A stretch of 64,000 nt of DNA from Qipengyuania gaetbuli (lineage in GTDB: Bacteria > Pseudomonadota > Alphaproteobacteria > Sphingomonadales > Sphingomonadaceae), in the NCBI RefSeq assembly GCF_020171365.1, contig NZ_JAIUZO010000002.1, forward strand, positions 930,001 to 994,000. Direction: 5' to 3'. The notes beneath the pieces are model-generated. The model ran no database searches. It worked only from the letters and a program-made list of their open reading frames with translations, and had not been told where the DNA came from. A program made the translations under genes and the position numbers. Below, piece after piece: positions 11,373 to 29,157 of this stretch (positions are counted from its first letter, which is position 1; every line of letters begins with the position of its first letter).

Positions 11373-11757
11373 CGTCTTTCACCTCGACCAATCGGCCTGC
11401 TTCAATTTCCGTTTCGATCTCGCCATCACCAAGCTCCAGCATGATCCTGGCGGCCTTGCGATAGACCTTCAGTTCGGCCGCACTCAGGTTTGCCTTGGCG
11501 CTCTTGGCGAAGGCAAACACGAATATCGCCCGCTCGCCCGAGCGGAAGATCAGGATCGAGCGATATCCGCCCGATTTGCCTCCGCCCTGGCGCGCGATGC
11601 GCTGCTTGATGAGACCGCTGCCGAGGTCGGCATCAATCAGGCTGCTATCAGCCCGATGCACGGCATCAGCAAGCGTTGCATCGCTGATCTTTTCCTTCGC
11701 TGCGAACTTGGCGAACCAGCGATTGGCAAAAATGCGTGTGCGCCGGTTCCTAGTCAT
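11359..11757 (-). CDS. RelE/HigB-type toxin
   Basis: A 132-residue basic protein of the type II toxin family related to RelE/HigB (COG4737-like), which in characterised members cleaves mRNA at the ribosome. Signatures: IFANRWFAKFAAKEKIS, SGLIKQRIARQGGGKSGGYR and SGERAIFVFAFAKS, then NLSAAELKVYRKAA. The Met at 11757 was chosen because it overlaps the recombinase stop, as in a coupled operon; a frame Met seven codons upstream lies inside the recombinase. The XRE antitoxin overlaps its 3' end. Confidence 0.9.
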   Translation of the reverse strand: MTRNRRTRIFANRWFAKFAAKEKISDATLADAVHRADSSLIDADLGSGLIKQRIARQGGGKSGGYRSILIFRSGERAIFVFAFAKSAKANLSAAELKVYRKAARIMLELGDGEIETEIEAGRLVEVKDDEQG

Positions 11758-12988: not shown

Positions 12989-14235
12989 CGGCTCACTCCA
13001 ATCAGGCTTGCGATTGAACCCGACACGCGCTCGGCAGCATCGGCGATTACCTCATCGGACAAATGCGCATAGCGCGAAGTCGTCTCTGCCAGAGCATGAC
13101 CGAGCAGTTTGCCGATCACCATTAACGAGATGTTGTCGCGGATCGCGGTAGAAGCGAAGCTGTGCCGAAGGTCATGTAGGCGGACGTCAGGCAGCGCAGC
13201 ACGGTTGCGAATTTCTGGCCAGTACATGCCCAGCTTGATCGGCCTCTCTGGATCGCGAACCGATGGAAAAACCAACCCCGTCGGCGTGCGATCCGGGATC
13301 GACGCGATCACTTCGACAGCCTGGCGATTGAGATAGATGATTTTAGCGCCGGTCTTACTGTCAGGCAGCATGATACGCGGCTCCTGCACCCATTCCCAGC
13401 GCAGGTTTTCTATCTCTCCGCAGCGCGCGCCTGTGTAGATCAGCAAGCGTATCGCGGCGACGACAGCCGGACACTCGGTTTCAAAGTGGTTCAACGCAGT
13501 CGCGAGCTGGCCGTACTCACGGGCGGAAAGGAAGCGTTCCATCCGTTTGCGCTTGTAGCGTGGCGTCCCTCTGCAAGGGTTCGAACCACGGCGGCGATAT
13601 CCGAGCTTCTCTGCGTAGCCCATCATAACCGAAAGGATCGGGATGGTCCGGTTGAAGGCACCTGTGCGCTCGGCGAAGCCATCACGCCAGAACGAAATAT
13701 CGGCCTTGGTGATTTCGTCGACACGGCGATCACCGAAGGTTGGGAGGATGTCCCGATCGATCCCGGTGCGGTTCCGATTGCGCGTGCTCGGTTTCCAGTG
13801 GTGCGCATAGTCAGCCCAGAATAGCTCGGCATACTCACGCATCAGCGGCGCTTCCTTCGCGCGAGATTTCGTGGTCTTGCGCGAAGGCAGTCCATCGAGC
13901 GCCACTTCCGCCAGCTTCTCTCGCGCAAGTCGCCGCGCTTCAATTGCTGTCTTTTGCTTCGATGTTCCGAGAGAGACACGGCGTTGCTTGCCGCGCTGGC
14001 GGAACATCACGAACCAGGTTCTGCGCCCCGAAGGATGCACCCGCAGCCCGAACCCGGGCAGCTCGCTATCCCAATATTCAATCATCCGTTTGCCAAGCCT
14101 GCGCCGTACGATATTGCCGTTCAATCTTACATGCTGGATGCTCTGCTCACCCTTATCCTCGCGCACACGCCGCACTTCGGAAAGCGCATGATTCGGGCTT
14201 GATTTTTGCGGTAACACATGGCCATTCCGGTCCAT
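12985..14235 (-). CDS. Tyrosine recombinase, first of a tandem pair
   Basis: A 416-residue recombinase with the full catalytic set: Arg271 (TGARCGEI), HDLRHSF with His354 and Arg357, His380 in LLGHALAETTSRYAHL and Tyr389. Core-binding domain at about 130-225. The ATG follows GAGGAGAAGATCG, a strong ribosome site. It is the lead gene of the recombinase-recombinase-toxin-antitoxin operon and diverges from hsdM. A 23-base inverted repeat lies about 40 bases upstream and may be its operator or crossover site. It shares layout with the next recombinase, so the pair may act as a heteromer. Confidence 0.95.
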   Translation of the reverse strand: MDRNGHVLPQKSSPNHALSEVRRVREDKGEQSIQHVRLNGNIVRRRLGKRMIEYWDSELPGFGLRVHPSGRRTWFVMFRQRGKQRRVSLGTSKQKTAIEARRLAREKLAEVALDGLPSRKTTKSRAKEAPLMREYAELFWADYAHHWKPSTRNRNRTGIDRDILPTFGDRRVDEITKADISFWRDGFAERTGAFNRTIPILSVMMGYAEKLGYRRRGSNPCRGTPRYKRKRMERFLSAREYGQLATALNHFETECPAVVAAIRLLIYTGARCGEIENLRWEWVQEPRIMLPDSKTGAKIIYLNRQAVEVIASIPDRTPTGLVFPSVRDPERPIKLGMYWPEIRNRAALPDVRLHDLRHSFASTAIRDNISLMVIGKLLGHALAETTSRYAHLSDEVIADAAERVSGSIASLIGVSR

Positions 14236-14271: not shown

Positions 14272-14294
14272 AAGATATTGGTAAACAATATCTT
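14272..14294. promoter_or_regulatory. Perfect inverted repeat between recombinase and hsdM
   Basis: AAGATATTG-GTAAA-CAATATCTT: two 9-base arms around a 5-base centre, in an AT-rich stretch. It lies 37 bases from the start of the minus-strand recombinase and about 190 bases before hsdM. The arm and spacer size fit either a regulator operator or a tyrosine-recombinase core site. No exact second copy was found by eye. Confidence 0.45.
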
Positions 14295-14481
14295 TCTGCA
14301 TCAGCGATGCGTACGGTGTGCCTGTCAAGTTCCAATGTGCGCAAGGTGTTTCCTGTGTCTATGCGGTACAAATTCGCGCGATATTATCCTGCGACTGTCC
14401 GCTGGAATAAGAGCCGGAATGGCCATTGAATTCAGGTATGAGGGCGTAGCCAGTGAGTCTTCCTCATGCCATAGATCAGCC

Positions 14482-17142
14482 ATGACCAAGCTGACCCTAT
14501 CACAACTTACCGGCCTGCTGTTCAAAGCCTGCGATGAGCTTCGAGGCAACATGGATGCCTCCGAATACAAGGAGTACATTTTTGGCGTTTTGTTCCTGAA
14601 AAGGTGCAGCGACCTGTTCGATCAGCAGCGCGAAAGGCTTGCGAAGGAACTTCGCGACCGCGGGCTTAAAGGCGACCGGTTGGAGGCCGCGCTAAACAAC
14701 CCCGATCAGTATACCTTTTTCGTCCCGCCAGAAGCGCGATGGGAGACGGTTCGTCACCTTAAGGATGATGTCGGCAACGGCCTCAACACAGCGCTCGGCG
14801 AGCTTGAGCGCCACAACAAAGACCAGCTCGAAGACGTCCTCGAACATATCAATTTCAACCGCAAGATCGGCCAGCGGACGCTAAGCGACGACACGCTGGT
14901 CGACTTCATCCAGGTCTTCGAAAAGATCCCTTTGCGTGACGAAAACTTTGAGTTCCCCGACCTCCTCGGAGCGGCCTACGAATACCTCATCAAGTACTTC
15001 GCTGACTCCGCCGGGAAGAAAGCAGGCGAGTTCTACACGCCCGCCGATGTCGTGCGCACCATGGTCGAGATTGTCGCCCCTCAACCCGGCATGTCGGTCT
15101 ATGACCCAACGGTTGGTTCGGGCGGCATGCTGATCCAGTCGCGCGACTATATTCGTGACACTGGCGGAAATCCAACAGACCTTACGCTGGCCGGGCAGGA
15201 GAAGATCGGCACGACTTGGTCGATCTGCAAAATGAACATGATCCTGCACGATATCCAATCGGCGGATATCAGGCAGGAAGACACAATTCAGCACCCGCAG
15301 CACCGTGACGGGGAAGGCGAACTGATGCGCTTCGACCGCATCCTCGCCAACCCGCCGTTCAGCCAGAACTACAGCAAGAAGGACATGGAAGCGCCCGGTC
15401 GCTTCTCCGTCTGGATGCCTGAGAAGGGCAAGAAAGCGGACATGATGTTCGTCCAGCACATGCTTGCGGTGCTGAAGGCGAACGGTCGAATGGCTAGCGT
15501 CATGCCGCATGGCGTCCTGTTCCGTGGCGGAGAAGAGAAGGAGGCGCGCAAGCAGTTCATCGACAAAGGCTGGCTCGATGCAGTGATCGGCCTGCCGCCT
15601 TCGCTGTTTTACGGCACCGGCATCCCCGCCTGCATCCTGGTCATGAACAAAGAGCACGCTGCCGAGCGAGACGATGTCTTGTTTATCAATGCCGACCGCG
15701 AATACCGCGAAGGCAAGGCGCAAAACTTCCTCCGCCCGGAAGATATGGCGAAAATCGTTCACGTTTATCGCGAGCGCAAGGATGTACCCGGCTATGCCCG
15801 CGTGGTGCCGCGGAGCGAGATCAAGGGCGAAGACTACAACTGTAACATTCGCCGCTATGTCGACAACGCGCCGCCGCCCGAACCGCAGGACGTGCGGGCC
15901 CATATTCATGGCGGCGTACCGACGGCAGAGGTCGATGGACTGGAGCGTTATTGGCGCAACTATCCCGACCTACGGGAAAGCTGTTTCATTCCCCGCGCGG
16001 GTGATCCGAAGTATTGCGACTTCGCCGGTGCCATCGGGACGCGGCGGGACATTGCCATGCTGGTTCGCGAGCACCAAAGCATCACCTCGACGCACGCGGC
16101 ATTCATGAAACGGCTGGACGCGTGGTGGTCCGAGAACCTGCCGACAATTCAGCAGATCGAACCGGGCGATGGGAAACAGAGCGGTGGCAATGTCTATGCC
16201 GTGCGCCGCGCGTTGGTGGCGTCGATCGATCAGGCATTTGGCGACCAGACGCTGCTCAATGATTTCCAGTTGCGGGGCGCGATGGCCAAGGCAATCGACG
16301 GCCTGAAGGTCGATTTGAAGTCCATTGCCGCCAGCGGCTGGGGGCCTGAGTTGATCCCGGACAATGAAATCCTTGAGAGGATGTTCCCCGAATTGATCGA
16401 GGAAATGGCGGTAAAACGGGCGCGGATCGACGAGCTCAATGCGCTCTTCTCCGCCGCAGATGAGGAGGATTTCGAGGACGAAGACGATACCGGCGTTCTG
16501 GGTAGTGAAAACGTCTCTGCTCTTAGGGAGGACGAGAAGGTTGCCAAGGCGGCCTTGAAGGGCCTGGTGAAGAAGGCGAAGGACCAGGTAAAGCTCATTA
16601 AGATCGATCTCGATGTTCGCGACGCTTGGCCCAAGGGGGTCAAAAAAGGGGACGTGAAGATCGGTGGAACCCAGTCAGCGCCCGATTTCGATAGCGCTCG
16701 ACGAACCTTGCAGATTGTCGTCGCGGGCAATGTCGAAAGTCTATTTGCTAATCCCGTGGCAGCCTTGGTTGAGGATGGAGAAGCACTCGTCGCGCGATTG
16801 CAACACACACAGGCATCTCTGGCCGCGCACAAGGCGTTGGAGGATGAAGCGAAGGAGCTGAAGGCAGAACTTCGCACGGCGGAGAAGAAGAAGGACGAGC
16901 TGGTCGAAAAGGCCCGCGAAAAGATCAGCCGCGAGGAAGCGCGCGATGAAATCCTCAAGCGCTTCCACCGGATCGTTCAGGACACCTATCGCCGTTATCT
17001 GGAGGCAGACCGCCGCGCGGTGACAGCGGCCATCGAGAACTTGCACGACAAATATGCGGTGACGCTGCGCGATATCGAAGGCCAGCGCGCTAACGCGGCG
17101 AGTGAGCTGGACGGGTATTTGAAGGCCCTTGGATATGTCTGA
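14482..17142 (+). CDS. hsdM: Type I restriction-modification methyltransferase subunit
   Basis: Adenine-N6 DNA methyltransferase subunit of a type I system, 886 residues. N-terminal HsdM domain from the start ([20 protein letters not shown], then [14 protein letters not shown]). SAM-binding motif [11 protein letters not shown] near residue 207 and catalytic NPPF near 290. The catalytic core is over by about residue 520. The remaining 360 residues are an added acidic and coiled-coil-rich region ([10 protein letters not shown], then [20 protein letters not shown]). The ATG at 14482 fits the family start although its ribosome site is weak; the open frame extends 68 codons further upstream without family likeness. 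It overlaps hsdS by eight bases. Confidence 0.95.
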
Positions 17143-18400
17143 GTGGGTTGAGAAGCCTCTCGGCAAGTTGGCCTCTTTCAAGAAGGGCAAGAAGGTCGAC
17201 ACTTCGGAATTTCCGCTCGACGGCTATATTCCATACTTAGGTGCTTCATCACTCACCGGCGGCTCAGACGGCTGGGCAAAGCCGCAGGAGGGCATCGATT
17301 GTCTTTCCAGTGATGCGCTGATGCTATGGGACGGTGAACGGAGCGGCCTTGTCGGTCCTGGTCGAGATGGCGTCATCTCTTCGACAGTTATGCGCTTACG
17401 CCCAGAGAGCGACATGAGCGGCGCTTACTTGGTCCACTTGCTTCGGCAAAATTTCGACTGGATCCAGGCAAGGCGTACTGGGACAGGTGTCCCGCACGTC
17501 CCAAAAGATCTCGGACGGATTTTGGAACTCCGATATCCTAAGGACGAAATCGAACAGACGGCAATCTGCGACGTTCTTGATTGCATCGACACCCAGATTG
17601 AGGCGACGAACGCGTTGATTGCGAAGCAGGAGCGACTGCGAGCAGGGTTGATGCAAGACCTGTTCACGCGCGGCGTGGACGAAAACGGCGAACTGCGCCC
17701 GCCTCGCGACGTTGCCCCACATCTCTTCCACGAAACCGAACTTGGGTGGTTGCCCAAAGAATGGTCTGCACCCGAGGTGCAATCTCTTTTGGCCGACGGC
17801 CCTACACCTATGAGAAGCGGGCCATTCGGAAGTGCGCTCCTTAAGCACGAACTGGTCGAGATCGGCATCCCGCTACTCGGCATCGACAACATCCATGCAG
17901 AGCGTTTCGAGGCCAGCTTCTCGCGCTTTGTCACGCCAAGAAAGTTTCTGGAGCTTTCACGCTATCGCGCACTCCCTGGCGATGTTGTTATCACAATAAT
18001 GGGCACGGTGGGCAGATGCTGCATCATTCCTGATGGCCATGGCGATCTTTTATCGTCCAAACACTTATGGACCATGACCTTCGATAAGTCCAAAGTCATT
18101 CCTGAATTGGTTTGTTGGCAGCTTAACTTCGCTCCGTGGGTGCTTTCGTGGTTTCGCCAGCAATCACAGGGGGGGATTATGGATGCCATTCAGTCATCGA
18201 CCTTGAAACGCCTCCGACTGCCACGTCCCACCTTGCCTGAGCAGGAGCGGATACTTCAGTGCTATAATTCCTCAAGTGGCGCTTTGGCTTCAATGCGGGA
18301 TGAGTTGGCTAAGCTTCGGCTCAAAAAAGCTGGCCTAATGCAAAATCTCCTGACCGGCGCTGTCTCCGTCGAGCCTCTTCTGGAGAAGGAGCCAGCATGA
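17135..18400 (+). CDS. hsdS: Type I restriction specificity subunit
   Basis: A 421-residue specificity subunit that recognises the two halves of the target site. It has two target-recognition domains (about 1-140 and 205-360), each followed by a conserved helical spacer ([21 protein letters not shown] at about 150-185 and [15 protein letters not shown] near the end). Both half-repeats are present, so the subunit looks full length. The ATG at 17135 lies inside the hsdM end; a TTG two codons earlier is less likely. The target sequence cannot be read from the protein by eye. Confidence 0.94.
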
Positions 18401-21400
18401 GCGAATATGCCCATGTCGAAAAGCCGCTGTTGGACCAGCTCGAAGGGCTGGGCTGGACGGCGATCGACCAGGGTAGTGGTATCCCGACCAATCCGGCAAA
18501 ATCGCTCCGCACCAATTTCCTCCAGCTGCACTTGCCCGACGCCTTTCGCCAATCGATCCGCGCGCTCAACCGCACCAAGGACGGCGGGGAATGGCTGACC
18601 GACCGTCAGCTCGATATGCTGATCGACGACATCTACCGCCAGCCCAATCGCAGCCTGTTGGAAGCAAACGAGACGGTCCAGGCCCTGCTGTTCAAGGCGC
18701 AGGTCGATCGTAACGAAGTGACGGGCGAGGAAGACCCGACTGTCCGCCTGATCGATTTCGCCGATCCCGCCCGCAACACCTTCCACGCAATCAACCAGTT
18801 CCGCGTCGATACGCCGGGCTGCGTGAAGGGCTTCATCATTCCAGACGTGGTGCTGTTCGTGAACGGCCTGCCGCTCGTGGTGATCGAGGGAAAGATTGGC
18901 GATGCCAACACTGCCAACCCGATGCACGAGGCCTTCGTCCAACTGCAACGCTATCGCGGCGCACGGCCCGAAACCGAGGCGGCTGGCCTGCGCGAAGGCG
19001 AGCCAAAGCTGTTCTACACCAACCTGGCGGTCGTGCGCACCTGCGGGGAAGCGGCGGAATTCGGATCGATCACCAGCGCGCCTGAGCATTTCTACAGCTG
19101 GCGCAATATCTGGCCTGAACAATATTCCGAGATCGATCCACCGCTCGGTGTCGTGCGTTCGCAGGAAGAACTGGCTCAAGGCCTGTTCAACCCTCACGCC
19201 CTTCTTGACATGCTGCGCACCTGCTCGGTCTTCATGGACTTGCCAAACGGCAAGCGGATCAAGGTACTCGCCCGCTATCAACAGCACCGCGCTGCGCGGA
19301 AGATTGTCGAGCGGCTACGCAATGGACAATCGCGCGAAGAGCGCAGCGGCGTTGTCTGGCACACTCAGGGTTCGGGCAAATCGCTCACGATGGTCTTCGT
19401 CGGACGGATGCTCCGCGCATCCAGCGATCTAAGCGACTTCAAGATTCTAATGGTGGTCGACAGGGCTGATCTGGAAGACCAGCTCTCCGCCACCGCAAAG
19501 CTGATCGGCGGCAAGGTGAATGTGATCGAAAGCCGCGCCGATGTGCGCGGCCAACTCGCCTCGCCCGCTTCCGACATCAACATGGTGATGGTCCACAAAT
19601 TCCTAGAGGCGAAGGAAGAGCTTTCCGACGGTCTGCGCGAAAAGCTGGGTCGTTATGCCCCGCCACCGAGCGCCGAAAACTTCGGCACGGTGAACGAGTC
19701 AGACCGTATCCTCATCATGGTCGACGAAGCCCACCGCACGCAGGGCAGCGACATGGGTGACAATCTGTTCGAAGCCTTCCCCAATGCCGCGCGCGTGGCC
19801 TTCACCGGTACGCCTCTGATTACCGACCGCCATGCAGGCAGGAAGACCGTCAAGCGCTTCGGCGAGTACATCGACACCTATAAATTAATGGATGCGGTCG
19901 AGGACGGAGCGACACTCAAGATCCTCTACGAAGGCCGCACTGCCAACACTGCGCTGCGGGACAAGGCCGAGTTCGATGAGGCGTTCGAAGATCTCTTTGC
20001 GGATCGCACGCCCGAGGAATTGCTGGCGATCAAGAAGAAGTATGGCGCGACTGGAGATATCCTGGAAGCAGAAGGCCGGATCGCTGCAATCGCTCGCGAT
20101 ATCGTCAATCACTATATCGACAACATCCTGCCCAATGGCTTCAAGGCGCAAGTGGTCTGCAATTCAAAGCTTGCCGCCGTGCGATACCAGAAGGCTCTCC
20201 GCGAAGCATTGAATGAACGGCTAGAGGTTGAGCGGGCCAAAACGGAACCAGATGACGAAGCGATCAAGCGCATCGCATTTCTGAAGGTGGCGGTGGTCAT
20301 ATCCTCCGACGGAACGAATGAATCGGCTGAGATCACCAATGCGCGGAAGGAGGCAAAGGCGGCAAATGCTGTCGAGAATTTCTGCAAGCCTTTTGAGCCC
20401 GACGACTACGAAAAGACTAACACCGGCGTCGCATTTCTCGTCGTCTGCGACATGCTGCTGACCGGGTTCGACGCTCCAATCGAGCAAGTCATGTATATCG
20501 ACAAGAAGCTGAAAGAGCACAATCTGCTCCAGGCGATCGCCCGCGTGAACCGTGTAACACACGGGAAGCGGCGAGGATTCATCGTCGACTATATCGGTCT
20601 TGCAAATCATTTGACCGATGCGCTCAAGATCTATGCGGACGAAGAACTCGAAGATCTTCAGGCCGGGTTGCAGAATGTCAGCTCAGAGTTGCCGATCCTA
20701 GAAGAGCGCTATCGCCGATTGCTTCAGCATTTTCAGGGCCTCGGTGTGAATGAGATTGAAAGGTTTCTGACGGCGTCTCTAGCTGGCGCCGAGGAGGAGG
20801 CATCGGTCATTCACAAAGCGGTCGATGCGCTTGAGAACATCAAGGCACGGGCCGACTTTGAGGTATTCCTCAAGAAGTTCCTGATGAGTCTCGATCTGGT
20901 TTTGCCAGGCAAGGCGGCACATGAGTATCGCGGCCCGGCCAGGCGCCTTGGCTATCTGATGCGCATGGCGAAAGAACGGTACAAGGACGATTCCATCAAC
21001 TTCGCGGGCGTTGGTGAGAAGGTCGCAGCACTGATCAACCGCCACCTCGTCGAATTGGGCATCGATCCGCAAATACCGCCGATCGAACTTCTCGACCCGG
21101 AGTTTGTCGATCATGTCACTGGACATGCCGGAAAGAGTACGCGGGCGAAAGCGAGCGAGATGGAGCACGCCATCCGCAAGCACTGCACCATACACTTCGA
21201 TGAAGACCCTGCTTTCTTCAAGCGGATGAGCGAAAAGCTCGATACCCTCATCGCCAAGCATGGCGACGATTGGAAAGCTCTGGCGGAACACTATGAAGAG
21301 CTTCGGGCGGAAATCAGGGCTGGTCGAGGGGACGAAGGCGTTGAGCAGCCTGCCGAAGTGCAAGTATTCCGGGCGAACTTGTTGGACCTGATCGGCGACG

Positions 21401-21651
21401 GCATGACGCTTTCCAACGAGGACGCGGTTCTGCTTGATGCTCTGGCAACGCGCATCGTCGAAATTGTCCAAGAGGCTATCGCCATCGTCGATTTCTGGAG
21501 GAAGCCGGATCAGGTTCGTCGTTTGAGAGCCGACATCGATACGGAGGTCATGGTTTCAGGAATTGCTCCGGTGCAAGACAATCACCTGCGGATTGCAGTC
21601 GAGCTAACGAAGCTCGCGGAAAAACGTCACGCGGAGTTGTTGCGGTCATGA
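18397..21651 (+). CDS. hsdR: Type I restriction endonuclease subunit
   Basis: A 1084-residue motor and nuclease subunit. The N-terminal PD-(D/E)xK nuclease shows PDVVLFVNGLPLVVIEGK at about 149-166. Helicase motifs follow: Walker A HTQGSGKS near 324, VDEAHRTQGSD near 441 and FTGTPL near 471; motif VI lies around LLQAIARVNR near 710. The C-terminal third should contact HsdM/HsdS. It overlaps the hsdS stop by four bases and has AAGGAG before its ATG. No frameshift is visible, so the system should be able to cut DNA. Confidence 0.96.
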   Translation: MSEYAHVEKPLLDQLEGLGWTAIDQGSGIPTNPAKSLRTNFLQLHLPDAFRQSIRALNRTKDGGEWLTDRQLDMLIDDIYRQPNRSLLEANETVQALLFKAQVDRNEVTGEEDPTVRLIDFADPARNTFHAINQFRVDTPGCVKGFIIPDVVLFVNGLPLVVIEGKIGDANTANPMHEAFVQLQRYRGARPETEAAGLREGEPKLFYTNLAVVRTCGEAAEFGSITSAPEHFYSWRNIWPEQYSEIDPPLGVVRSQEELAQGLFNPHALLDMLRTCSVFMDLPNGKRIKVLARYQQHRAARKIVERLRNGQSREERSGVVWHTQGSGKSLTMVFVGRMLRASSDLSDFKILMVVDRADLEDQLSATAKLIGGKVNVIESRADVRGQLASPASDINMVMVHKFLEAKEELSDGLREKLGRYAPPPSAENFGTVNESDRILIMVDEAHRTQGSDMGDNLFEAFPNAARVAFTGTPLITDRHAGRKTVKRFGEYIDTYKLMDAVEDGATLKILYEGRTANTALRDKAEFDEAFEDLFADRTPEELLAIKKKYGATGDILEAEGRIAAIARDIVNHYIDNILPNGFKAQVVCNSKLAAVRYQKALREALNERLEVERAKTEPDDEAIKRIAFLKVAVVISSDGTNESAEITNARKEAKAANAVENFCKPFEPDDYEKTNTGVAFLVVCDMLLTGFDAPIEQVMYIDKKLKEHNLLQAIARVNRVTHGKRRGFIVDYIGLANHLTDALKIYADEELEDLQAGLQNVSSELPILEERYRRLLQHFQGLGVNEIERFLTASLAGAEEEASVIHKAVDALENIKARADFEVFLKKFLMSLDLVLPGKAAHEYRGPARRLGYLMRMAKERYKDDSINFAGVGEKVAALINRHLVELGIDPQIPPIELLDPEFVDHVTGHAGKSTRAKASEMEHAIRKHCTIHFDEDPAFFKRMSEKLDTLIAKHGDDWKALAEHYEELRAEIRAGRGDEGVEQPAEVQVFRANLLDLIGDGMTLSNEDAVLLDALATRIVEIVQEAIAIVDFWRKPDQVRRLRADIDTEVMVSGIAPVQDNHLRIAVELTKLAEKRHAELLRS

Positions 21652-22349
21652 AGATGTGTGCGCAAGACATCGAGTTCACACTCATTCGCAGCGACCGAAA
21701 AACCGCGGACATCGTAATCGAGCGGTCCGGCGATGTTATCGTAAGAGCGCCGAACGAAATCGACGATGGAAGGGTCCGCCAAGCGGTCGCTGATCGAGCG
21801 CTCTGGGTCCATCGATCGCTCGCCGAGTGGGAAAGCTTGAATTCCAGCAGACGGACGAGACCTATCGCCCAGGGGCAGGGCTTTGCTTATCTTGGCCGAT
21901 CTTATCGACTTAAATTTGTCGACAATGCCAAGGCACCGCTTACCTTGAAGAATGGGCGCTGGGAGCTTTGCGAAAAGTTCGCTGCGGATGCCGGGGAAGC
22001 GGGGGCGCGGAAGGCCTTTCGGGACTTCTACATAGTGAAAGGGCGAAAAGTCTTTGGCGAGAGGGTTGCTCTCTTCGCGCCGAAGGTTGGCGTCTCTCCT
22101 GGTGAAATCGCAGTGAAGGAATTAGGATATCACTGGGCATCATGCGGCAAAGGAGGAGCACTCAACTTCCACTGGAAAACGCTGATGGCTCCGCAAACCG
22201 TCATTGATTATATCGTGGTCCACGAGCTCTGCCACTTGCGGCATCGTGACCATTCCGATGCATTCTGGAATGAGGTTGACAAGGTACTGCCAAACTTCAG
22301 GCTGCGAAAGGAGTGGCTAAGGCTGAACGGAGCGTCGCTAACTCTCTAG
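21648..22349 (+). CDS. YgjP/SprT-like zinc metallopeptidase
   Basis: A 233-residue protein of the YgjP family (DUF45, M48-like). The zinc motif HELCHLRHRDH is at about residues 191-201, preceded by a conserved GYHWASCGKGGALNFHW stretch. Genes of this family often sit directly after hsdR in type I loci, as here, with a four-base ATGA overlap. Its job in restriction is not established; regulation of HsdR by proteolysis or a DNA-protein repair role are possibilities. The stop overlaps the end of the convergent nucleotide operon by four bases. Confidence 0.9.
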   Translation: MKMCAQDIEFTLIRSDRKTADIVIERSGDVIVRAPNEIDDGRVRQAVADRALWVHRSLAEWESLNSSRRTRPIAQGQGFAYLGRSYRLKFVDNAKAPLTLKNGRWELCEKFAADAGEAGARKAFRDFYIVKGRKVFGERVALFAPKVGVSPGEIAVKELGYHWASCGKGGALNFHWKTLMAPQTVIDYIVVHELCHLRHRDHSDAFWNEVDKVLPNFRLRKEWLRLNGASLTL

Positions 22350-23524
22350 TTCGGGTTCTCGCTGCCTTCAGGGTTTGAAGGAGCTAGGCGCCTAACTTGT
22401 GATTGAAGAAGGTCGATTTCGGCTCTCAGTGTTTCGATTTCATTTTCCTGAGATTCGATCTGGGCCCGAAGCGCTGACGTGGTTGCCCTCGCCTCCAATT
22501 CAGCTCCCCCGAATGCGTCGACAGCTTCCACGTGGTCATCAAATTGCTCACCGTTCTCAGCCACGATTCCCTGTAATTCTCTGATTTGAGAGCGGTTTCC
22601 TGTAAAGTAGTCGATAGATATTCCAAATACCGTTGCCGCCAAGGTCACGACCGCGATTGCGCCTGCGATCACACCGCCGACACTATAGTTACGCATTGTT
22701 TGAGCGCTCTGCTCCGACTTTTTGGCGGAGTCAGCTGCTGCCTGCGATTTTTGGTCTGCTTTCTCCACCATGTCGGGGATAGAACTACGGATTGAGATTG
22801 GCTGCGCATCCGATGGGATCTGTGGCTTTGCGGCCTTCAGGATAAAATCCTTGATTTCGGGAAATTCGGTATTGGAAGGCGGTCGCCCATGCTCCGGGTT
22901 GGAGGAGGTCTTTGTAAATTCAATCCATATCAGTCCGTCTTCTTTAGGTATGAGATAGTCTTCATTGGTAAGATTGTGGAGCGGAATGCAAAGCCTGCCC
23001 CAGAATCCAGGATCGACCAGCGGCCCAGTGCCTAGAAGCAGCCCACGATGAACGTGATTAATCTGAAGGTTAAAACGGACAGCAATGAATGGTGGAAGCC
23101 TAAAGAAAATCTCCGATTCCACAAAAACGATGGAATTGGCTGGAACCGTTAGAAATTGCTGAGTTCCATCAAATATCGTTGTAGGGTAATTTTTACCTTT
23201 TTCGAACTGATAGGCACACTTCCCTATCTTGCTCTCATATGAAGCTGCTTTAAGAGGAGATTTTCTAAAATTCTCTCCATCAAACGGAGCGATCATTCCG
23301 GTCTTCTCTACATACTCAATGATATGATCGGCCGAAAGGAGCGCCTCTGGAATATCGCCGCAAGGGTCCGGGGCTGCCTTCTGGCCCGCCCTCATCTTAA
23401 ATGGAGCGGCGAGCCGCTCCGCATCGTTCTCTGCTAGCTTGAAAGGCACTTTGCTACGCTCTGATAGCCGCGGCGCACTTTGCCGAACGAAGATCGATAA
23501 TAGCTTTCCCAGAAAAGCCCACAT
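22346..23524 (-). CDS. dCTP-deaminase/dUTPase-fold membrane protein (candidate nucleotide sensor)
   Basis: A 392-residue protein. Residues about 55-225 resemble the trimeric dCTP deaminase/dUTPase fold: FLTVPANSIVFVESEIFFRL, then RGLLLGTGPLVDPGFWGRL and IPLHNLTNEDYLIP. The Glu expected after the PGxxG turn in dCTP deaminases appears as Pro by my alignment (IPLHN), so it may bind but not deaminate nucleotides. A linker leads to one membrane segment at about 280-303 (VGGVIAGAIAVVTLAAT) and a coiled coil at about 310-380. It is the third gene of the nucleotide operon, and its start (ATG 23524, GAGG upstream) lies 71 bases inside the previous gene. A membrane-anchored sensor or effector is inferred. 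Confidence 0.7.
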   Translation of the reverse strand: MWAFLGKLLSIFVRQSAPRLSERSKVPFKLAENDAERLAAPFKMRAGQKAAPDPCGDIPEALLSADHIIEYVEKTGMIAPFDGENFRKSPLKAASYESKIGKCAYQFEKGKNYPTTIFDGTQQFLTVPANSIVFVESEIFFRLPPFIAVRFNLQINHVHRGLLLGTGPLVDPGFWGRLCIPLHNLTNEDYLIPKEDGLIWIEFTKTSSNPEHGRPPSNTEFPEIKDFILKAAKPQIPSDAQPISIRSSIPDMVEKADQKSQAAADSAKKSEQSAQTMRNYSVGGVIAGAIAVVTLAATVFGISIDYFTGNRSQIRELQGIVAENGEQFDDHVEAVDAFGGAELEARATTSALRAQIESQENEIETLRAEIDLLQSQVRRLAPSNPEGSENPN

Positions 23525-24518
23525 AAGCAATCCTCGCCGCTACCTCGTCCTCTACCCTTGAAATGAATTCTGTCACTTTTGATGATTGATCGACTATTTC
23601 TCTTTCATCACCAATGTAATCCATATGGTTTAACACGATCGCAGTCGGATTGTTCGCAGAAATCGCTGACTTGACCACATCAGGATCAAACTCTCCCACG
23701 CGACGCAGATTTTTGGTGACAGTTGTGAACTCTCGGATGCTCCGGTCAATTCCAGCTGATTTCGCAATTTCTTCCCAGCTAGTCTCATTAGGCAATGGGC
23801 CAGACATCCCTGCGACTCGAATAGGGAATGATCTTAAAACGAGAACGACCTCATCAACGTCGATCGGACTTAACCCAGTCTCTGTGAGAGCTGACGCTGC
23901 TGTCGTGCATCTGGAAGTTGCCTTCGGCCAAAACCCACCATCATAGAGCGACAGGCCAAATCCCTGAGTTCCTTCAATTACAATGCGAGCTTTGCCGTTC
24001 AACCATTGACGCATTTTCAAGGTTGTGTCGCAGAGATACTGCTCCAGTGGCTCACAATGCTGAGCTTCATGCCTCTGGAGTGGGAAGTTGGCAGCCTCGC
24101 GAGCCACCGAGGCCATAATCGCAGCTCCAACACCACTCCCGGTCGATCCAATTCCTGTAACCAAGCCAGCATCGACTTCCCAGGCCTTCTGCTCAGGAGT
24201 GATGATGTTCGCGTATGGGCTTATGAGAATTCGATCACGCGGGTAGTCTAGGAGTTCGATTTCGTCCTGAAGAACATCAAGGTCGATGAACGATCCGGCA
24301 GGGAACACCACGTCAACGTTGCGATCAACTGCTCCTGCAGGCAGCTGCCTTAATGCAAATTTCTGCCCTGACCGATCATATGCTGTATGGCCCGAATTCG
24401 GGCCGCCAACCCTTACGACCGCGACCCGTGGGGCAGTCGCCATTCGTACCAGTTCAAGAGATACCTTACCCTTGCCCTCCGAGCCAAATTGGCCGCCTAC
24501 GACAATGGATACTGGCAT
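23454..24518 (-). CDS. Short adenylosuccinate-synthetase homologue with altered active site (PurZ-like?)
   Basis: A 354-residue member of the PurA superfamily; bacterial PurA is usually near 430. GTP and IMP-site motifs are recognisable: GGQFGSEGKGK (9-18), GGPNSGHT with catalytic-type His44, GIGSTGSGVG near 122, IEGTQGFGLSLYDGG near 181, TTVTKNLRRVG near 265 and NHMDYIGD near 297. The catalytic Asp of PurA (GDEGKGK) is Ser13 here. As I recall, phage PurZ enzymes, which make the 2-aminoadenine precursor from dGMP, are also short and carry a change at this position. Its ATG directly abuts the stop of the upstream gene (TAAATG). A housekeeping PurA role is unlikely. Confidence 0.8.
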   Translation of the reverse strand: MPVSIVVGGQFGSEGKGKVSLELVRMATAPRVAVVRVGGPNSGHTAYDRSGQKFALRQLPAGAVDRNVDVVFPAGSFIDLDVLQDEIELLDYPRDRILISPYANIITPEQKAWEVDAGLVTGIGSTGSGVGAAIMASVAREAANFPLQRHEAQHCEPLEQYLCDTTLKMRQWLNGKARIVIEGTQGFGLSLYDGGFWPKATSRCTTAASALTETGLSPIDVDEVVLVLRSFPIRVAGMSGPLPNETSWEEIAKSAGIDRSIREFTTVTKNLRRVGEFDPDVVKSAISANNPTAIVLNHMDYIGDEREIVDQSSKVTEFISRVEDEVAARIAYVGFSGKAIIDLRSAKCAAAIRA

Positions 24519-26405
24519 TTAAATCTCCGCTTCCCGGGCCTCGAGCAATCGAGTCACTTTTGAAAGCATATCTCGCTCGCGTCCATTATTGTATATAGTG
24601 AGTTCGGCGAGAGGTCGCATCACCGAAACTTTCTGCTCAACATCTGACGCAGAAGCCTCGTCGAACACTGATCCAACGACCGTGGGGCTCCCACCGTCTC
24701 GCTTGGAGTAGCGGCTTCGCCGACTTTCCTCATCAGCATCGACGAAAATATGGAAGAAGCGATAACCAAATTGCTCCCTCAAGAAGGCATGATCCTCTGG
24801 AAACCTCAAACCGTCCACAACAATCCGTTCAGCCGTTGAAACCCTGGCAATCGTTTTCTCCGCCAATTCTCGTTGGCGTCCACTGCGATTGATCTCTGCT
24901 CCCATTTCCTGTCGATGCCTGCGATCTAGCGGTTGGCCACACTCCCGCAACAGATCGTCAATCACTAGGCTGAAGCGCGTGTAGGCAAACCCAAGTTCTT
25001 CTAGCCCCTTCGCGAGCGTCGTCTTTCCTGCTGCGATCGGCCCACTCACACCCACTACGAAAGGCAGTTCTTCTCGCTGAAGGCGTGGGATTATTAAGGG
25101 CGGCTCTGTTTCCGTACCGAGCGACTCTGACAAGCCAGCAAGGTGAAAGGTCCCAACGAGCGCAGACGTAATCGCATCAAGCTCGTCGTGGGTCACCCGT
25201 TGGCGCACGTATCTACCATCAATGCCGAACTCGCTCAGCCCCAACTTTAGCCATTCCTCACCTGCCCCCTTCCGGGGAATTCTCATGATGTCTTGCGCGG
25301 CACCTGGATAACTCTCGATCACTGGGAAGCCGAGCTTGCGAAACTCTTGGGCAAGTTTGATCCCCCTAGCCGTAAGCTTCTGCATACTCGGAAGTAGGCA
25401 GGGGTAGACGTTGACCCCCCTGCGTTTCAGCTCGCGTTCGCAAACCCTCATGATTCCATATCGATCACGACCAGGATCGTCGTCAAAAACGGACAAGCGT
25501 CCGGTTGGGAGGCAAAGGGGCGAGTCTATCGAGATTAGCTCAGGGTTAGCTGCAACCGTTGCAGCAATAATCTCTTCATCGCTTGATAAGGTTGCCGTCT
25601 CAGCCCGATGCCCGTTTAAAACACACCAGCCTGATGGGCGCTTCTCTGAGCCAGTCAGATCAATTCCGACGACTCGCGAAAACTCGGCTTTCATCCCACT
25701 GAACAGCTCGCGAAAGGTGGGCGCCCTCGCCAATTCACTACCAGATACCCCTGTAATTTCAGGCAAAACATGCCGATCTTGCGGAGCGGACAAGTCCACA
25801 AAATCGATAGGTTCGCTCAGGAGATCGGCTTCGAAACCGAGCCTTTTTAAGGCATGATCAAACAGGGCTCCCATCGCGGCGATGTCCGCCCGGTTATAGG
25901 TAATCAAGGTCCGAAGCGCGTCCAGTTCACCTCTGAGATACCGGTGCCAAAGAAGCACTGCTGCGAAACCATCAACGCCTTCAATGTCATCTCTGAAATT
26001 GACGCCAAGTTCTTGCTCAATTGCCTTCTGACCACCTTTCAGACCGACCCGGCGGCAAAGGTACATGAGGTCGATATGAGGCTCTGGTAACTGGATAGTC
26101 GGAAATTCCTGTTCAAGGAATTTCGCATCGAAACGTATTCCGTTAAACGTGACCAGCGAAACGGCCTGCTCGACGGCTTCGAGCATTGGCTTTGGATCAT
26201 CTCCCTTTATGAAGGTTCCTGAACGCCCATCCATCGCCCAGCCAACAACGGTGATTTCATCATAGTAGTGGCTTAGACCGGTGGTCTCGATATCGAGGAA
26301 CATCACTCGCTCTGGTTGTTCATGGCAAAGAGCAAGCTTCTCGCGCAGGGCCCTAGGCAGTCTTCTCTTTATCATGTCGGGCACATCGTTTTCCATTGCA
26401 GGCAT
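24519..26405 (-). CDS. Exonuclease-like / DUF429 / P-loop kinase fusion protein
   Basis: A 628-residue three-domain protein. Residues about 35-190: DEDD-type RNase H-fold nuclease (FLDIETTGLSHYYDEITVVG, TFNGIRFDAKFLE, YNRADI), like the YprB family. About 245-425: a DUF429 domain, also RNase H-like (VVGIDLTGSEKRPSGW, LISIDSPLCLP, VIESYPGAAQDI, HDELDAITSALVG). About 450-628: a P-loop domain (VVGVSGPIAAGKTTLAKGL) with a layout like deoxynucleotide monophosphate kinases (VIDDLLRECGQ, VDGLRFPEDH, DADEESRRSRY). The start is uncertain: ATG 26405 follows AGGTG, ATG 26396 is also possible, and the frame is open upstream. It leads the nucleotide operon. Confidence 0.78.
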   Translation of the reverse strand: MPAMENDVPDMIKRRLPRALREKLALCHEQPERVMFLDIETTGLSHYYDEITVVGWAMDGRSGTFIKGDDPKPMLEAVEQAVSLVTFNGIRFDAKFLEQEFPTIQLPEPHIDLMYLCRRVGLKGGQKAIEQELGVNFRDDIEGVDGFAAVLLWHRYLRGELDALRTLITYNRADIAAMGALFDHALKRLGFEADLLSEPIDFVDLSAPQDRHVLPEITGVSGSELARAPTFRELFSGMKAEFSRVVGIDLTGSEKRPSGWCVLNGHRAETATLSSDEEIIAATVAANPELISIDSPLCLPTGRLSVFDDDPGRDRYGIMRVCERELKRRGVNVYPCLLPSMQKLTARGIKLAQEFRKLGFPVIESYPGAAQDIMRIPRKGAGEEWLKLGLSEFGIDGRYVRQRVTHDELDAITSALVGTFHLAGLSESLGTETEPPLIIPRLQREELPFVVGVSGPIAAGKTTLAKGLEELGFAYTRFSLVIDDLLRECGQPLDRRHRQEMGAEINRSGRQRELAEKTIARVSTAERIVVDGLRFPEDHAFLREQFGYRFFHIFVDADEESRRSRYSKRDGGSPTVVGSVFDEASASDVEQKVSVMRPLAELTIYNNGRERDMLSKVTRLLEAREAEI

Positions 26406-26554: not shown

Positions 26555-27772
26555 CTACCCAAACCTGGCTTTAATGACTTTGCCTCCCGCCCTGAGCTCA
26601 TCGAGGTGATCGCTCCACCACTGAGCCATGCGAACTCGTTCGTCCCAGTGCTTGCCGCGGTGGTAGATGCCGCGCACTGCATTGCTGTCGCCATGCGACA
26701 GGGCACGTTCAATCGCATCCGGATTCCAAAGGCCAGACTCATTCAGGAGCGTTGATGCTGTCGCCCGCAGGCCATGTGCGGTGACTTCTTCCTTCGAAAA
26801 GCCCATGCGACGAAAGGCGGCGTTGAGCGTATTCTCGCTCATAGGACGTTTGGAGCTTCGAGCAGACGGAAACACATATCCCTCGTAGCCAAGCAGTTCG
26901 GCCAGGTCGGTGAGATAGCCGACAACCTGCTTCGAAAGTGGGACCGCGTGCGGTCGGCGCGCTTTCATCTTGCCGGCTGGGATCTTCCAGACACCGTCGA
27001 TCAGGTCGAACTCATGCCATTCGGCGTGCCGGAGTTCGCCGGGGCGCACAAAGACATGCGGGGCGATCTGCAAGGCGAACTTCGTGACGATGTAACCGGT
27101 ATAATCGTCGATGGCGCGCAGCAGCCCGCCCAGCTCTCTGGGTTCAAGGATCGCCGCGTAGTGTGTCGCTCTCGGCGTGACGAGTGCGCCTTTCAACATG
27201 CTGGTCGGATCGGCCTTGCAGCGGGTGGTTGCGACACCGTAGCGAAATACTCGGCCAGCGAATGAGCGGCACTTCTTGGCAGTCTCGTGCTTACCGGTTG
27301 CCTCCAGCCGCTTGAGCGGGGCGAGCACTTCGAATGGCTCGATATCATTGATGGGTCGGTTGCCGATGGCAGGTGCAAGCTGATCGAGAAAGTAGTTGGC
27401 CTTGATGATCGTGGCTTCGGCCCGACCATTCTGGACCATGAACTGTTCGATGTACTCGCGCGCGACCGTCGCAAATGTCTGCGCGGTGAGAAACTCCTCC
27501 CGAATCTTCCGCTTGCGCTTTTCCAGCGCGGGATCGCCGCCTGAAGCGACAGCCTGGCGCGCCTCGTAGGTGGCATCGCGCGCTTGCTTGAGGCTGACTT
27601 CGGGGTAGCTGCCGATCGAGAGCTTCTTCTCGATCTTGCCGACCCGGTATCGGAATCGCCACAGCTTGCTGCCAGCGGGCGTGACCTCAACGTAGAGACC
27701 TCGCTGGTCAGCAACCTTGTAGGACTTGTCTTTTACCTTGAGGGCGCGAAGCCGGGTTTCGGTCAGAGGCAT
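26555..27772 (-). CDS. P4-type tyrosine integrase
   Basis: The integrase that most likely inserted the island, 405 residues. The N-terminal DUF4102 arm-binding domain (PLTETRLRALKVKDKSYKVA, YVEVTPAGSKLWRFRYR, LSIGSYPEVSLKQARDA) is typical of integrases acting on tRNA genes. Catalytic residues: Arg in VRPGELRHAEW, HGLRATAS, then ERALSHGDSNAVRGIYHRG with His and the nucleophile Tyr. The Met at 27772 matches the family start and has AAGGG upstream; the frame is open 34 codons further. It is transcribed away from tRNA-Leu, whose 3' end lies 167 bases upstream. Confidence 0.95.
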   Translation of the reverse strand: MPLTETRLRALKVKDKSYKVADQRGLYVEVTPAGSKLWRFRYRVGKIEKKLSIGSYPEVSLKQARDATYEARQAVASGGDPALEKRKRKIREEFLTAQTFATVAREYIEQFMVQNGRAEATIIKANYFLDQLAPAIGNRPINDIEPFEVLAPLKRLEATGKHETAKKCRSFAGRVFRYGVATTRCKADPTSMLKGALVTPRATHYAAILEPRELGGLLRAIDDYTGYIVTKFALQIAPHVFVRPGELRHAEWHEFDLIDGVWKIPAGKMKARRPHAVPLSKQVVGYLTDLAELLGYEGYVFPSARSSKRPMSENTLNAAFRRMGFSKEEVTAHGLRATASTLLNESGLWNPDAIERALSHGDSNAVRGIYHRGKHWDERVRMAQWWSDHLDELRAGGKVIKARFG

Positions 27773-27802
27773 GTGCGGGCCCTTTCCCAATGTGGTTTTC
27801 GC

Positions 27803-27830
27803 AAAGGCCCGCAAAAGGCCCGCAAAAATG
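27803..27830. repeat. Direct repeats inside the right island end
   Basis: AAAGGCCCGCA occurs twice in tandem. A similar pair lies inside the left end at 530-553. These are candidate arm-type sites of the integrase; they lie between integrase and tRNA, where such sites are expected. Confidence 0.4.
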
Positions 27831-27938
27831 TCGGGAACCCCCGAGATTTCGCGGGACGTTCCGGGACGATCCAAGGGCCAAATCCCTAGGATTTCTGCGG
27901 GTTTTATAGATTATTTGGGAGAACGTGAGAAGAACAAA

Positions 27939-28025
27939 TGGTGCCCAGAAGAGGACTCGAACCTCCACGCCCTTGCGAGCGCCGCCACCTGAAGACGGTG
28001 CGTCTACCAATTCCGCCATCTGGGC
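27939..28025 (-). tRNA. tRNA-Leu (anticodon CAG), island insertion site
   Basis: An 87-base type II tRNA with encoded CCA. Acceptor stem GCCCAGA pairs with TCTGGGC. The anticodon loop is TTCAGGT between CCGTC and GGCGG, giving anticodon CAG, which reads CUG. The long variable arm and the GGTTCGAGTCC T-arm are present. Its 3' end is duplicated at 454-468, which marks it as the integration target; the tRNA itself stays intact. Confidence 0.97.
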
Positions 28026-28206: not shown

Positions 28207-29157
28207 ATGGCGAAAGACAGCGCTTTGAACGGCAAGCTCGTGGTGCTCATGGGCGGCAGCGGATTCATCGGCAATTACGTGGCGCAGGCCCTGCTCGAAC
28301 GCGGTGCGCGCCTGCGGATCGCCAGCCGCAATCCGGAAAAGGCGTTCAAGCTGAAGCCGCTCGCCAATCTCGGCCAGATGCAGTTCGCCCGCTGCGATGC
28401 GACCGACCGCGCCAGCGTGGAACGGTGCATCGCAGGCGCGGATGCCGTGGTGAACCTCGTCGGATCGTTCGAGGGCAATTTGCGCAGGCTCATGGGCGAA
28501 GCGCCGGGCTGGATGGCAGAGGCAGCGAAAAAGGCCGGTGCCATGTCCTTCGTGCATGTCAGCGCGATCGCTGCCGAGCCGGACGAAGACACGCGCAACG
28601 AATACGCCTCGGCCAAGTGCCTTGGCGAGAAGCGCGTGCGCGAGGCGTTCCCCGAAGCGACCATCCTGCGTCCGTCGATCCTGTTCGGGAAGGACGACAA
28701 TTTCCTCAACATGTTTGCCGGCCTGATCTCGACCTTGCCGGTCCTGCCGGTGTTCGGGCCCGACAAGAAGCTGCAGCTGGTCTATGTCGACGATGTCGCC
28801 GAGGCGGTCGCCCGCTCGCTCGAAGATCCCGCGCAATTCGGCGGCAAGACTTTCGAACTCGGCGGCCCCGAGGAAGTGACCATGCTCGAAATCAACGAGC
28901 GCATTGCCGAAGCGCAGCGCCGCAAGCGGACGTTCCTGCCCATGCCTGACGCGCTGTCGGCCACCTTCGCCGCCCTGCCCGGCACGCCGATGAGCCGCGA
29001 CCAGTGGGACCTGCTGGCGCAGGGCAACACCGTCTCGGGCGAGCATCCGGGCTTCGATAAGTTCGGTATCGAGCCCAAGCCGGTGGGCCTGTTCCTCGAC
29101 AAGTGGATGACCCGCTACCGCAAGCACGGCCGCTTCGCTGAACGGCTCAGCGCCTGA
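28207..29157 (+). CDS. Complex I NDUFA9-family NAD(P)-binding protein
   Basis: A 316-residue atypical short-chain dehydrogenase of the NDUFA9-like group found in alphaproteobacteria. The N-terminal Rossmann motif is VVLMGGSGFIGNYVAQALLE; ARCDATDRASVERCI and SAIAAEPDEDTRNEYASAK follow, the latter replacing the usual YxxxK active site. In mitochondria the homologue is an accessory subunit of respiratory complex I that binds NADPH without turnover. Whether the bacterial protein is attached to complex I or acts as a quinone- or sugar-related reductase is open. It is the first chromosomal gene beyond the island. Confidence 0.88.
   Translation: MAKDSALNGKLVVLMGGSGFIGNYVAQALLERGARLRIASRNPEKAFKLKPLANLGQMQFARCDATDRASVERCIAGADAVVNLVGSFEGNLRRLMGEAPGWMAEAAKKAGAMSFVHVSAIAAEPDEDTRNEYASAKCLGEKRVREAFPEATILRPSILFGKDDNFLNMFAGLISTLPVLPVFGPDKKLQLVYVDDVAEAVARSLEDPAQFGGKTFELGGPEEVTMLEINERIAEAQRRKRTFLPMPDALSATFAALPGTPMSRDQWDLLAQGNTVSGEHPGFDKFGIEPKPVGLFLDKWMTRYRKHGRFAERLSA

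Follow-up and report, generated by a model that had tools for sequence, protein, structure and literature searches.

What does a three-gene nucleotide operon do beside a type I restriction-modification (RM) system in Qipengyuania gaetbuli? The question is raised by a stretch of 64,000 nucleotides (contig NZ_JAIUZO010000002.1, positions 930,001 to 994,000; hereafter the window), in which an earlier note, made from the sequence alone, had proposed a new defence system. We read the operon as a candidate abortive-infection system against phages, mobile and centred on a nucleotide synthetase of PurZ type, and regard this reading as about evenly poised between right and wrong. It draws on features seen in the sequence, i.e. 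the operon and its conservation, the PurZ-group membership of gene 2, the replaced deaminase residues and transmembrane architecture of gene 3, the rarity and mobility of the operon, and its defence neighbourhood. The substrate, product, gene 3 ligand, membrane toxicity and trigger described below are what we infer. The earlier defence idea gains support and its mechanism is sharpened; as a whole, it is partly supported. The operon consists of the following genes:

24519-26405, minus strand: gene 1, 628 amino acids (aa), with exonuclease-like (RNase_H_2), DUF429 and P-loop kinase-like parts
23454-24518, minus strand: gene 2, 354 aa, PurZ-group adenylosuccinate synthetase-like, with the Ser13 codon at 24480-24482
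22346-23524, minus strand: gene 3, dCTP-deaminase/dUTPase fold followed by one hydrophobic segment and a helical tail; ATG at 23524, alternative GTG at 23449

All three open reading frames were found where the earlier note had placed them and in the order it described, and the TAA stop codon of gene 1 abuts the ATG of gene 2 without a spacer, as claimed. The length of gene 1 is counted from the ATG that fits its homologues; its reading frame is open to 26537. For genes 2 and 3 to overlap by the reported 71 bases, gene 3 must start at ATG 23524; with GTG 23449, four bases after the gene 2 stop codon, as its start there is no overlap. Four homologues (P0004, P0007, P0010, and P0018) start at most one residue from this GTG, so the overlap may be a matter of start-codon choice; judged from the sequence, gene 3 may start at either codon.

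A scan of genome contigs yielded 34 loci. Twenty-six of them had a long match to gene 1, and at 25 of these genes 2 and 3 followed in the same order, which makes the operon more than a chance arrangement. The earlier note had suggested looking for co-occurrence of the three families, and they do occur together. Gene 2 is partial at L009 and gene 3 is weak at L018 (26.6%, 1.4e-18). Outside the 25 loci stand L027, where gene 1 is broken and genes 2 and 3 are absent, L030-L036, which match in the RNase_H_2 part only, and L037, which lies at a contig end. We take the hosts to be mostly Alphaproteobacteria (Sphingomonads, Rhizobia, and Roseobacter relatives), with records L013 and L018 presumably from Gammaproteobacteria. 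At L025:12870-15308, two different gene 3 copies were seen in tandem behind a single gene 2.

By its sequence, gene 2 is a PurZ-group enzyme and not an ordinary PurA. It matched Adenylsucc_synt (3.3e-44), and its best NCBI family was PurZ NF038379 (250.8 bits, E = 1.6e-74; curated cut-off of 300 not reached), followed by PRK04293 adenylosuccinate synthetase (239.3) and TIGR00184 purA (177.4). The sole PHROG matched was '2-aminooxy adenylosuccinate synthetase' (5.8e-76). The closest solved sequence was 7VF6, identified in a passage of PMC12884076 as PurZ0 of Gordonia phage Archimedes. In 22/22 operon rows, GSEGKG replaced the GDEGKG of PurA rows, placing Ser13 where PurA has its catalytic Asp; another passage of that paper gives Ser for 100% of phage PurZ sequences and calls Asp13 99% conserved in the PurA group. 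The loop PIRV[AG]GxSG is common to operon rows, PurZ0, and one of three phage PurZ rows, and PMC8342488, in the part that also treats residue roles, describes a PurZ-specific insertion at the corresponding loop. Maximum-likelihood trees separated operon, PurZ0, and PurZ rows from PurA (100/100 with 32 rows, 100/99 with 28 rows), with a PurA side of only three rows on long branches in both trees and a long-branch warning in the larger one. Operon rows formed a single clade in the 28-row tree (87/93) but not in the 32-row tree; the branching order among PurZ subgroups is likewise not settled. Both trees exclude L120 (partly masked), L121 (cut), and one shortened haloarchaeal PurA; the smaller one holds 13 of the 22 operon rows of the motif table plus L119. 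The remark on Ser13 in the earlier note, which called gene 2 a short PurA homologue, had already hinted at PurZ.

At the nucleotide-donor motif, operon rows read NHxD, the genome's own PurA TKxD, PurZ0 a Met-x-Asp form, and ATP-using PurZ NFxN. PurZ0 uses GTP. Together, this and the NHxD motif suggest that gene 2 probably uses GTP as well. Ordinary purine genes were rejected as an explanation because the genome already has its own PurA and Dcd and the operon is rare, in agreement with the earlier statement that the gene content is unlike that of housekeeping purine genes.

Gene 1 combines three parts:

25851-26303, minus strand: RNase_H_2 domain, aa 35-185 (6.5e-31)
25083-25667, minus strand: DUF429 region, about aa 247-441 (3.2e-4, 20.9 bits, under the cut-off of 23)
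24540-25064, minus strand: kinase-like domain, aa 448-622, with P-loop GPIAAGKTT (AAA_18, 1.9e-8)

The RNase_H_2 domain contains D38/E40, D93, and Y170-x3-D174, which we take to be the DEDDy pattern. The P-loop and the motifs DIET, NGIRFD, and HDELDAITSA were invariant in 22/22 rows, and YNRxD was kept in 21/22. In sequence, the kinase part is similar to a phage kinase of deoxynucleoside monophosphates (phrog_139, 5.7e-8), to the kinase part of PADLOC dCTPase (1.1e-12), and to NF041025 anti-phage dCTP deaminase (2.3e-7), and the DUF429 part touches the PADLOC candidate PDC-S44 (4.1e-6). The structure model had a mean pLDDT of 82.7. A free-standing DUF429 protein, 57.7% identical to gene 1 aa 246-441, is encoded on a Dyadobacter plasmid (L038:10432-12594), just 3' of a DACNG-DACNH diadenylate cyclase gene.

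For gene 3, two elements were located:

22892-23344, minus strand: DCD-fold domain, aa 63-213 counted from TTG at 23530
22619-22675, minus strand: predicted transmembrane segment GVIAGAIAVVTLAATVFGI (Kyte-Doolittle 2.28 over 19 residues)

Sequence comparison gave a weak match to dCTP deaminase phrog_1663 (1.7e-7) and 22.7 bits against TIGR02274 dCTP deaminase (curated cut-off of 92.8 not reached). The structure model (mean pLDDT 82.7) has the Dcd/dUTPase fold (4xjc, 3.0e-10; 8y1w, TMt 0.82). Together with the family matches above (RNase_H_2, AAA_18, Adenylsucc_synt, and DUF429 below its cut-off), this fold bears out the earlier domain calls. Two alignments, to 8y1w and to the genome's own Dcd, placed I157, H161, and P183 at the deaminase positions, presumably corresponding to S111, R115, and E138 in E. 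coli numbering with their catalytic roles. P183 and the dUTPase-type Asp D173 were invariant in 33/33 rows. Behind the DCD domain, a hydrophobic segment and a tail were found in 29/29 proteins, with Kyte-Doolittle values over 19 residues of 1.56-2.73 (the lowest in two near-identical plasmid copies) and tails of 29-125 residues; in 3/29 rows the script misplaced the domain end, yet the hydrophobic segment lies beyond residue 245. An active dCTP deaminase was rejected on account of the replaced catalytic residues. From its sequence, we read gene 3 as a membrane-anchored receptor for nucleotides, a working dCTP deaminase being unlikely. The fold and the anchor proposed earlier are retained, the working deaminase is not; and as the deaminase residues are replaced, 'sensor' fits better than 'destroyer' in the earlier formula that the operon 'makes, senses or destroys' deoxynucleotides.

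The same residues bear on a defence that acts on the nucleotide pool without a messenger. Anti-phage dCTP deaminase and dGTPase proteins starve phage, and the operon might similarly drain dGTP/dGMP and other deoxynucleoside triphosphates (dNTPs), with gene 3 as a membrane-bound dNTP hydrolase. The likeness of the gene 1 kinase-like domain to the kinase part of PADLOC dCTPase and to NF041025 would suit this, as would the retained D173 and DCD fold of gene 3; a passage of PMC12884076 also has Dut-fold proteins of PurZ0 phages hydrolysing dNTPs. However, the deaminase residues are replaced, the constant hydrophobic segment and tail are unneeded for hydrolysis, and a synthetase that consumes nucleoside triphosphate (NTP) is an odd tool for emptying a pool. 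We consider a drained pool unlikely.

In the abortive-infection reading, infection would raise dGMP through phage breakdown of host DNA, perhaps aided by the exonuclease-like domain of gene 1. Judging from its sequence, gene 2 would join dGMP and aspartate at the expense of an NTP, probably GTP, to give N6-succino-2-amino-dAMP (dSMP). The next step, phosphorylation of dSMP or of a 2-aminoadenine nucleotide made from dSMP by host enzymes, would fall to the kinase-like domain of gene 1. The deaminase-dead DCD-fold domain of gene 3 would bind the resulting non-canonical deoxynucleotide, and gene 3 with its ligand bound would oligomerise in the inner membrane and stop the cell. That gene 2 groups with phage enzymes could instead point to a defence against Z-genome phages, in which gene 3 senses the dZTP/dSMP of an invading PurZ phage and genes 1 and 2 tune or prime the pool; yet the operon itself would make the nucleotide to be sensed, and we think such a role very unlikely.

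Variant loci bear on the proposed link between kinase and synthetase. A Ser-type PurZ DNA pattern occurred in 4/398 genomes of the phylum and 6/367 genomes of the class, the genome under study and G325 being found in both, and the reversed control of the pattern had no match among the matches listed. These scans added seven loci, L117-L123. Five of them (L117, L118, L120, L122, and L123) encode kinase-PurZ fusion proteins (532-549 aa), in which a P-loop kinase-like part at the N terminus precedes a PurZ part at the C terminus. For the L122 fusion, the one examined with Pfam, the matches were AAA_18 (7.3e-8) and Adenylsucc_synt (3.4e-52); by tblastn, the gene 1 kinase matched the fusions of L117, L118, and L123, that of L120 being partly masked. 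The fusion gives the impression of a second layout of this system, and no other finding hints as strongly at a shared pathway for kinase and PurZ. In the other direction, PurZ and gene 3 occur without gene 1, within the fetched 20 kb, at L039 and L040 (conjugative Sinorhizobium plasmids) and at L090. At L119, the whole operon is followed by a deoxynucleoside kinase gene (L119:10248-10853; dNK PF01712, 2.3e-24), which overlaps gene 3 by one base.

Further genes recur beside these loci. HD genes like that of L039 adjoin the fusions at L117, L118, and L123; those of L039 and L118 are YfbR-like, under that family's cut-off. A DUF7002 gene lies near the fusions of L118 (1.5e-66) and of L122 and L123 (both by eye), and a gene with IrrE and macro domains near those of L122 (Pfam) and L120 (by eye). 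A family of proteins some 240 aa long, with the pattern 'QNRYxGDxGD ... DPDNG', was found at the operon in 10/25 loci and at L090, mostly directly downstream of gene 3; its L012 member, the only one scanned, had no Pfam or PADLOC match.

Members of the family of about 240 aa: L012:14046-14780, L014, L015, L016, L017, L020, L025, L026, L028, L029, L090:9808-10578

The HD genes adjoining some bacterial variants would also suit an operon that lets the island or the cell place 2-aminoadenine in its own DNA, and according to a part of PMC8342488, E. coli DNA acquires Z through the joint action of purZ, datZ, and mazZ. Against this, there is no polymerase among the three operon genes, the membrane segment of gene 3 is left unexplained, and the same source mentions toxicity of the Z cluster. 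We give this explanation hardly any credence.

To judge from the genome scans, the operon is rare and mobile. A strong gene 3 match was present in 2/385 class genomes (the genome under study and a contig-edge fragment in G315), and at E <= 1e-10 gene 3 was present in 4/296 genomes of the order, this one included, with none in 20 other genomes of the same genus among those listed. Weak or partial class-wide matches (15/17 in one scan, 12/13 in another) were not counted as the operon. Phage-borne cargo was rejected as an explanation: gene 1 had no match (E <= 1e-5) in 50,697 phage records, and viral contigs scanned with patterns of genes 1 and 3 showed no relative. Gene 2 does match phage PurZ genes, with about 26-42% identity in the records listed and less than 60% in 207/207.

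In the window, hsd genes flank the operon on one side and an integrase at a tRNA gene on the other:

14278-17142, plus strand: hsdM, type I RM
17129-18400, plus strand: hsdS, type I RM
18397-21651, plus strand: hsdR, type I RM
21648-22349, plus strand: YgjP-like metallopeptidase gene, 3' of hsdR and convergent with gene 3
26555-27874, minus strand: tyrosine integrase, adjoining the operon
27939-28025, minus strand: tRNA-Leu (CAG), beside the integrase

The hsdM, hsdS, and hsdR genes (14278-21651) are convergent to the operon, with the YgjP gene in between; a YgjP-like neighbour was also found at L004, L005, L006, L024, and L088 (L089 being the L024 genome again). The junction of tRNA-Leu with the gene at 28207-29157 was matched in 26/26 genomes of the genus, in some partly and in one very weakly. 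Left of tRNA-Leu, 6/6 fetched relatives were without this island, and two of them carry a related integrase. The left end of the island is not set because no second copy (at least 15 bases) of the tRNA-Leu region occurs within the window. Another genome of the genus has, past the same tRNA-Leu, a 70% relative (L087:12719-13925) of positions 5431-6637 (hydrolase to RND adaptor genes), so the variable region may include these positions. Beside hsdM lie two XerC/D-like tyrosine recombinases in tandem (11750-14235). A dUTPase-like gene, recognised by eye from its translation and with a weak TIGR02274 match, lies outside the island (47482-47943). Elsewhere, an rlmJ-family gene was seen near the operon in six Rhizobiales loci (L016, L019, L020, L022, L025, and L029) and at L119, assigned by Pfam for L019, by BLAST cluster for the other Rhizobiales loci, and by eye for L119; a shared insertion hot spot is possible.

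Known or candidate defence genes (HsdM, HsdR, PDC-S41, SoFic, or RmrA) were found at 14/25 non-window loci. BLAST clusters placed an HsdM gene at eight of the 25 (L004, L005, L006, L008, L010, L012, L024, and L029), and PADLOC confirmed it in all four loci tested (L008, L010, L012, and L029) and in the window. As a control, 96 class genomes (268.9 Mb) gave 49 PF02384 matches (E <= 1e-25), a count that includes the window's own gene and some split genes. The expectation is 0.07 HsdM in 387 kb of flank against eight loci observed (P about 1e-14), a control good to an order of magnitude only, since the observed genes were called by BLAST and the expected ones by profile in other genomes. Other neighbours were the candidate PDC-S41 at L007 (8e-267), SoFic at L013 (1.1e-52), RmrA at L021 (2.5e-55; BLAST relatives at L022 and L026), HsdR at L025 (2e-45), HipA at L004 (Pfam; BLAST relative at L005), and, at the plasmid locus L039, BilD (1.6e-170). 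The neighbours of operon loci were scanned in part and by choice: 17 hand-picked proteins from the 25 loci were run through PADLOC, and the 10 that fell below 1e-40 are not a rate; one of them, the UvrD helicase of L026, may be housekeeping, that locus being counted through its RmrA relative. On the fusion loci, strong PADLOC matches were confined to the type I RM proteins of L122. Enrichment near defence genes, a check proposed in the earlier note, is seen here, and the link to defence genes extends beyond this one island; the distribution of the operon, rare in the order and mobile, is that of an accessory system.

The neighbourhood also bears on accessory nucleotide metabolism with no defence role, e.g. 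an island-borne salvage or clean-up of odd deoxynucleotides. The recognisable enzyme domains of the operon are metabolic, weakly YfbR-like HD genes and the dNK gene stand beside variants, and L121 lies beside core genes. On the other hand, the operon is rare and patchy, it occurs near integrases, plasmid genes, and BilD, SoFic, RM, and HipA genes, and gene 3 looks like an effector. We hold a purely metabolic role to be quite unlikely.

Several observations weigh against the abortive-infection reading, besides the three-row PurA side of the trees and the coarse HsdM control noted above. There are two-gene variants without the kinase and kinase-PurZ fusion loci without gene 3, and at L121 a PurZ start at a contig end has two core-metabolism genes, for AdoHcyase and a PEP-utilising enzyme, as neighbours. 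The island layout of the window recurs at four of the eight HsdM loci, which may represent one event; with five events, P rises to about 1e-8. PADLOC left gene 2 unmatched and matched gene 3 at chance level only (PbeC, 0.019). In gene 3, divergent rows (L039 and L018 among them) do not preserve H161, and with D173 kept the sequence leaves hydrolysis possible. The exonuclease-like and DUF429 domains of gene 1 have no assigned step in the proposed pathway. The predicted kinase substrate is not fixed by the fold ranking, as dephospho-CoA kinases came first by E-value (1t3h, 1.6e-6) and 3lw7, an AMP-bound adenylate-kinase-related protein, had the highest TMt (0.78) among the 50 rows listed. Finally, the assignment of GTP to gene 2 leans on the use of GTP by PurZ0, and a passage of PMC12884076 prints the reverse ('ATP and GTP, respectively', for PurZ0 and PurZ), contradicting its own introduction.

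Beyond this operon, we tentatively propose a new class of immunity, and would sooner expect it to fail than to hold. N6-succino-2-aminoadenine or 2-aminoadenine deoxynucleotides would serve as second messengers; bacterial PurZ and dedicated kinases would make them, and membrane receptors with a DCD fold or swapped partners (DUF7002, HD, macro-domain) would read them. If so, the phage Z-genome toolkit (PurZ, HD DatZ, and Dut-fold DutZ) and the bacterial toolkit (PurZ, HD, and DCD-fold) would face each other in a single arms race, and PurZ would have moved between the two. PurZ is familiar from phages, which use it to make Z-DNA. A PurZ that is bacterial, linked to defence and paired with both a kinase-like partner of its own and a membrane protein resembling a receptor would bring a new messenger chemistry into bacterial immunity and would place the origin of Z-genomes in a cellular context. 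As a three-gene system, the operon is directly testable in E. coli.

In the literature searched (bioRxiv being outside its scope), no paper was found that connects these families to defence. A part of PMC12884076 describes the PurZ group as phage sequences and four archaeal ones only, from a prokaryote sample of at most two sequences per phylum, and a passage of PMC13092281 predicts a dUTPase-containing system that may or may not be related to the operon. Gene 2 shares with phage PurZ and PurZ0 of Z-genome biosynthesis (7VF6, 6FM1, and 7ODX) the change of Asp13 to Ser, the PurZ-type loop, and the side of the tree, and with PurZ0 the D of the nucleotide-donor motif (in 3/4 PurZ0 rows, those where the motif table shows it); it differs in being bacterial, on chromosome or plasmid, and in belonging to an operon linked to defence. 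Gene 3 has the fold of bacterial Dcd and dUTPase, but S111, R115, and E138 are replaced and a hydrophobic segment and helical tail are added. Anti-phage dCTP deaminase (PADLOC dCTPase and NF041025) has a related P-loop kinase-like domain, the only part that matches gene 1, whereas gene 3 has the Dcd/dUTPase fold without the catalytic residues.

CBASS, Pycsar, and Thoeris systems with membrane effectors follow a plan of synthetase plus sensor-transmembrane effector. The operon would follow this plan with a different predicted chemistry: PurZ and gene 3 are co-encoded, as putative synthetase and putative sensor. General family and PADLOC scans found none of the enzyme families of these systems and no Kom, CD-NTase, or TIR names, although PADLOC 2023 may lack Kongming. 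Kongming employs KomA, an adenosine-deaminase homologue, in place of PurZ, borrows the kinase of the phage where the operon has its own kinase-like domain, and depletes NAD+ where the operon has a membrane protein. The likeness to Kongming is one of logic: according to a part of PMC12948488, a dNMP kinase raises a non-canonical deoxynucleotide that a receptor protein senses, and dITP is the messenger, a precedent for the logic proposed here.

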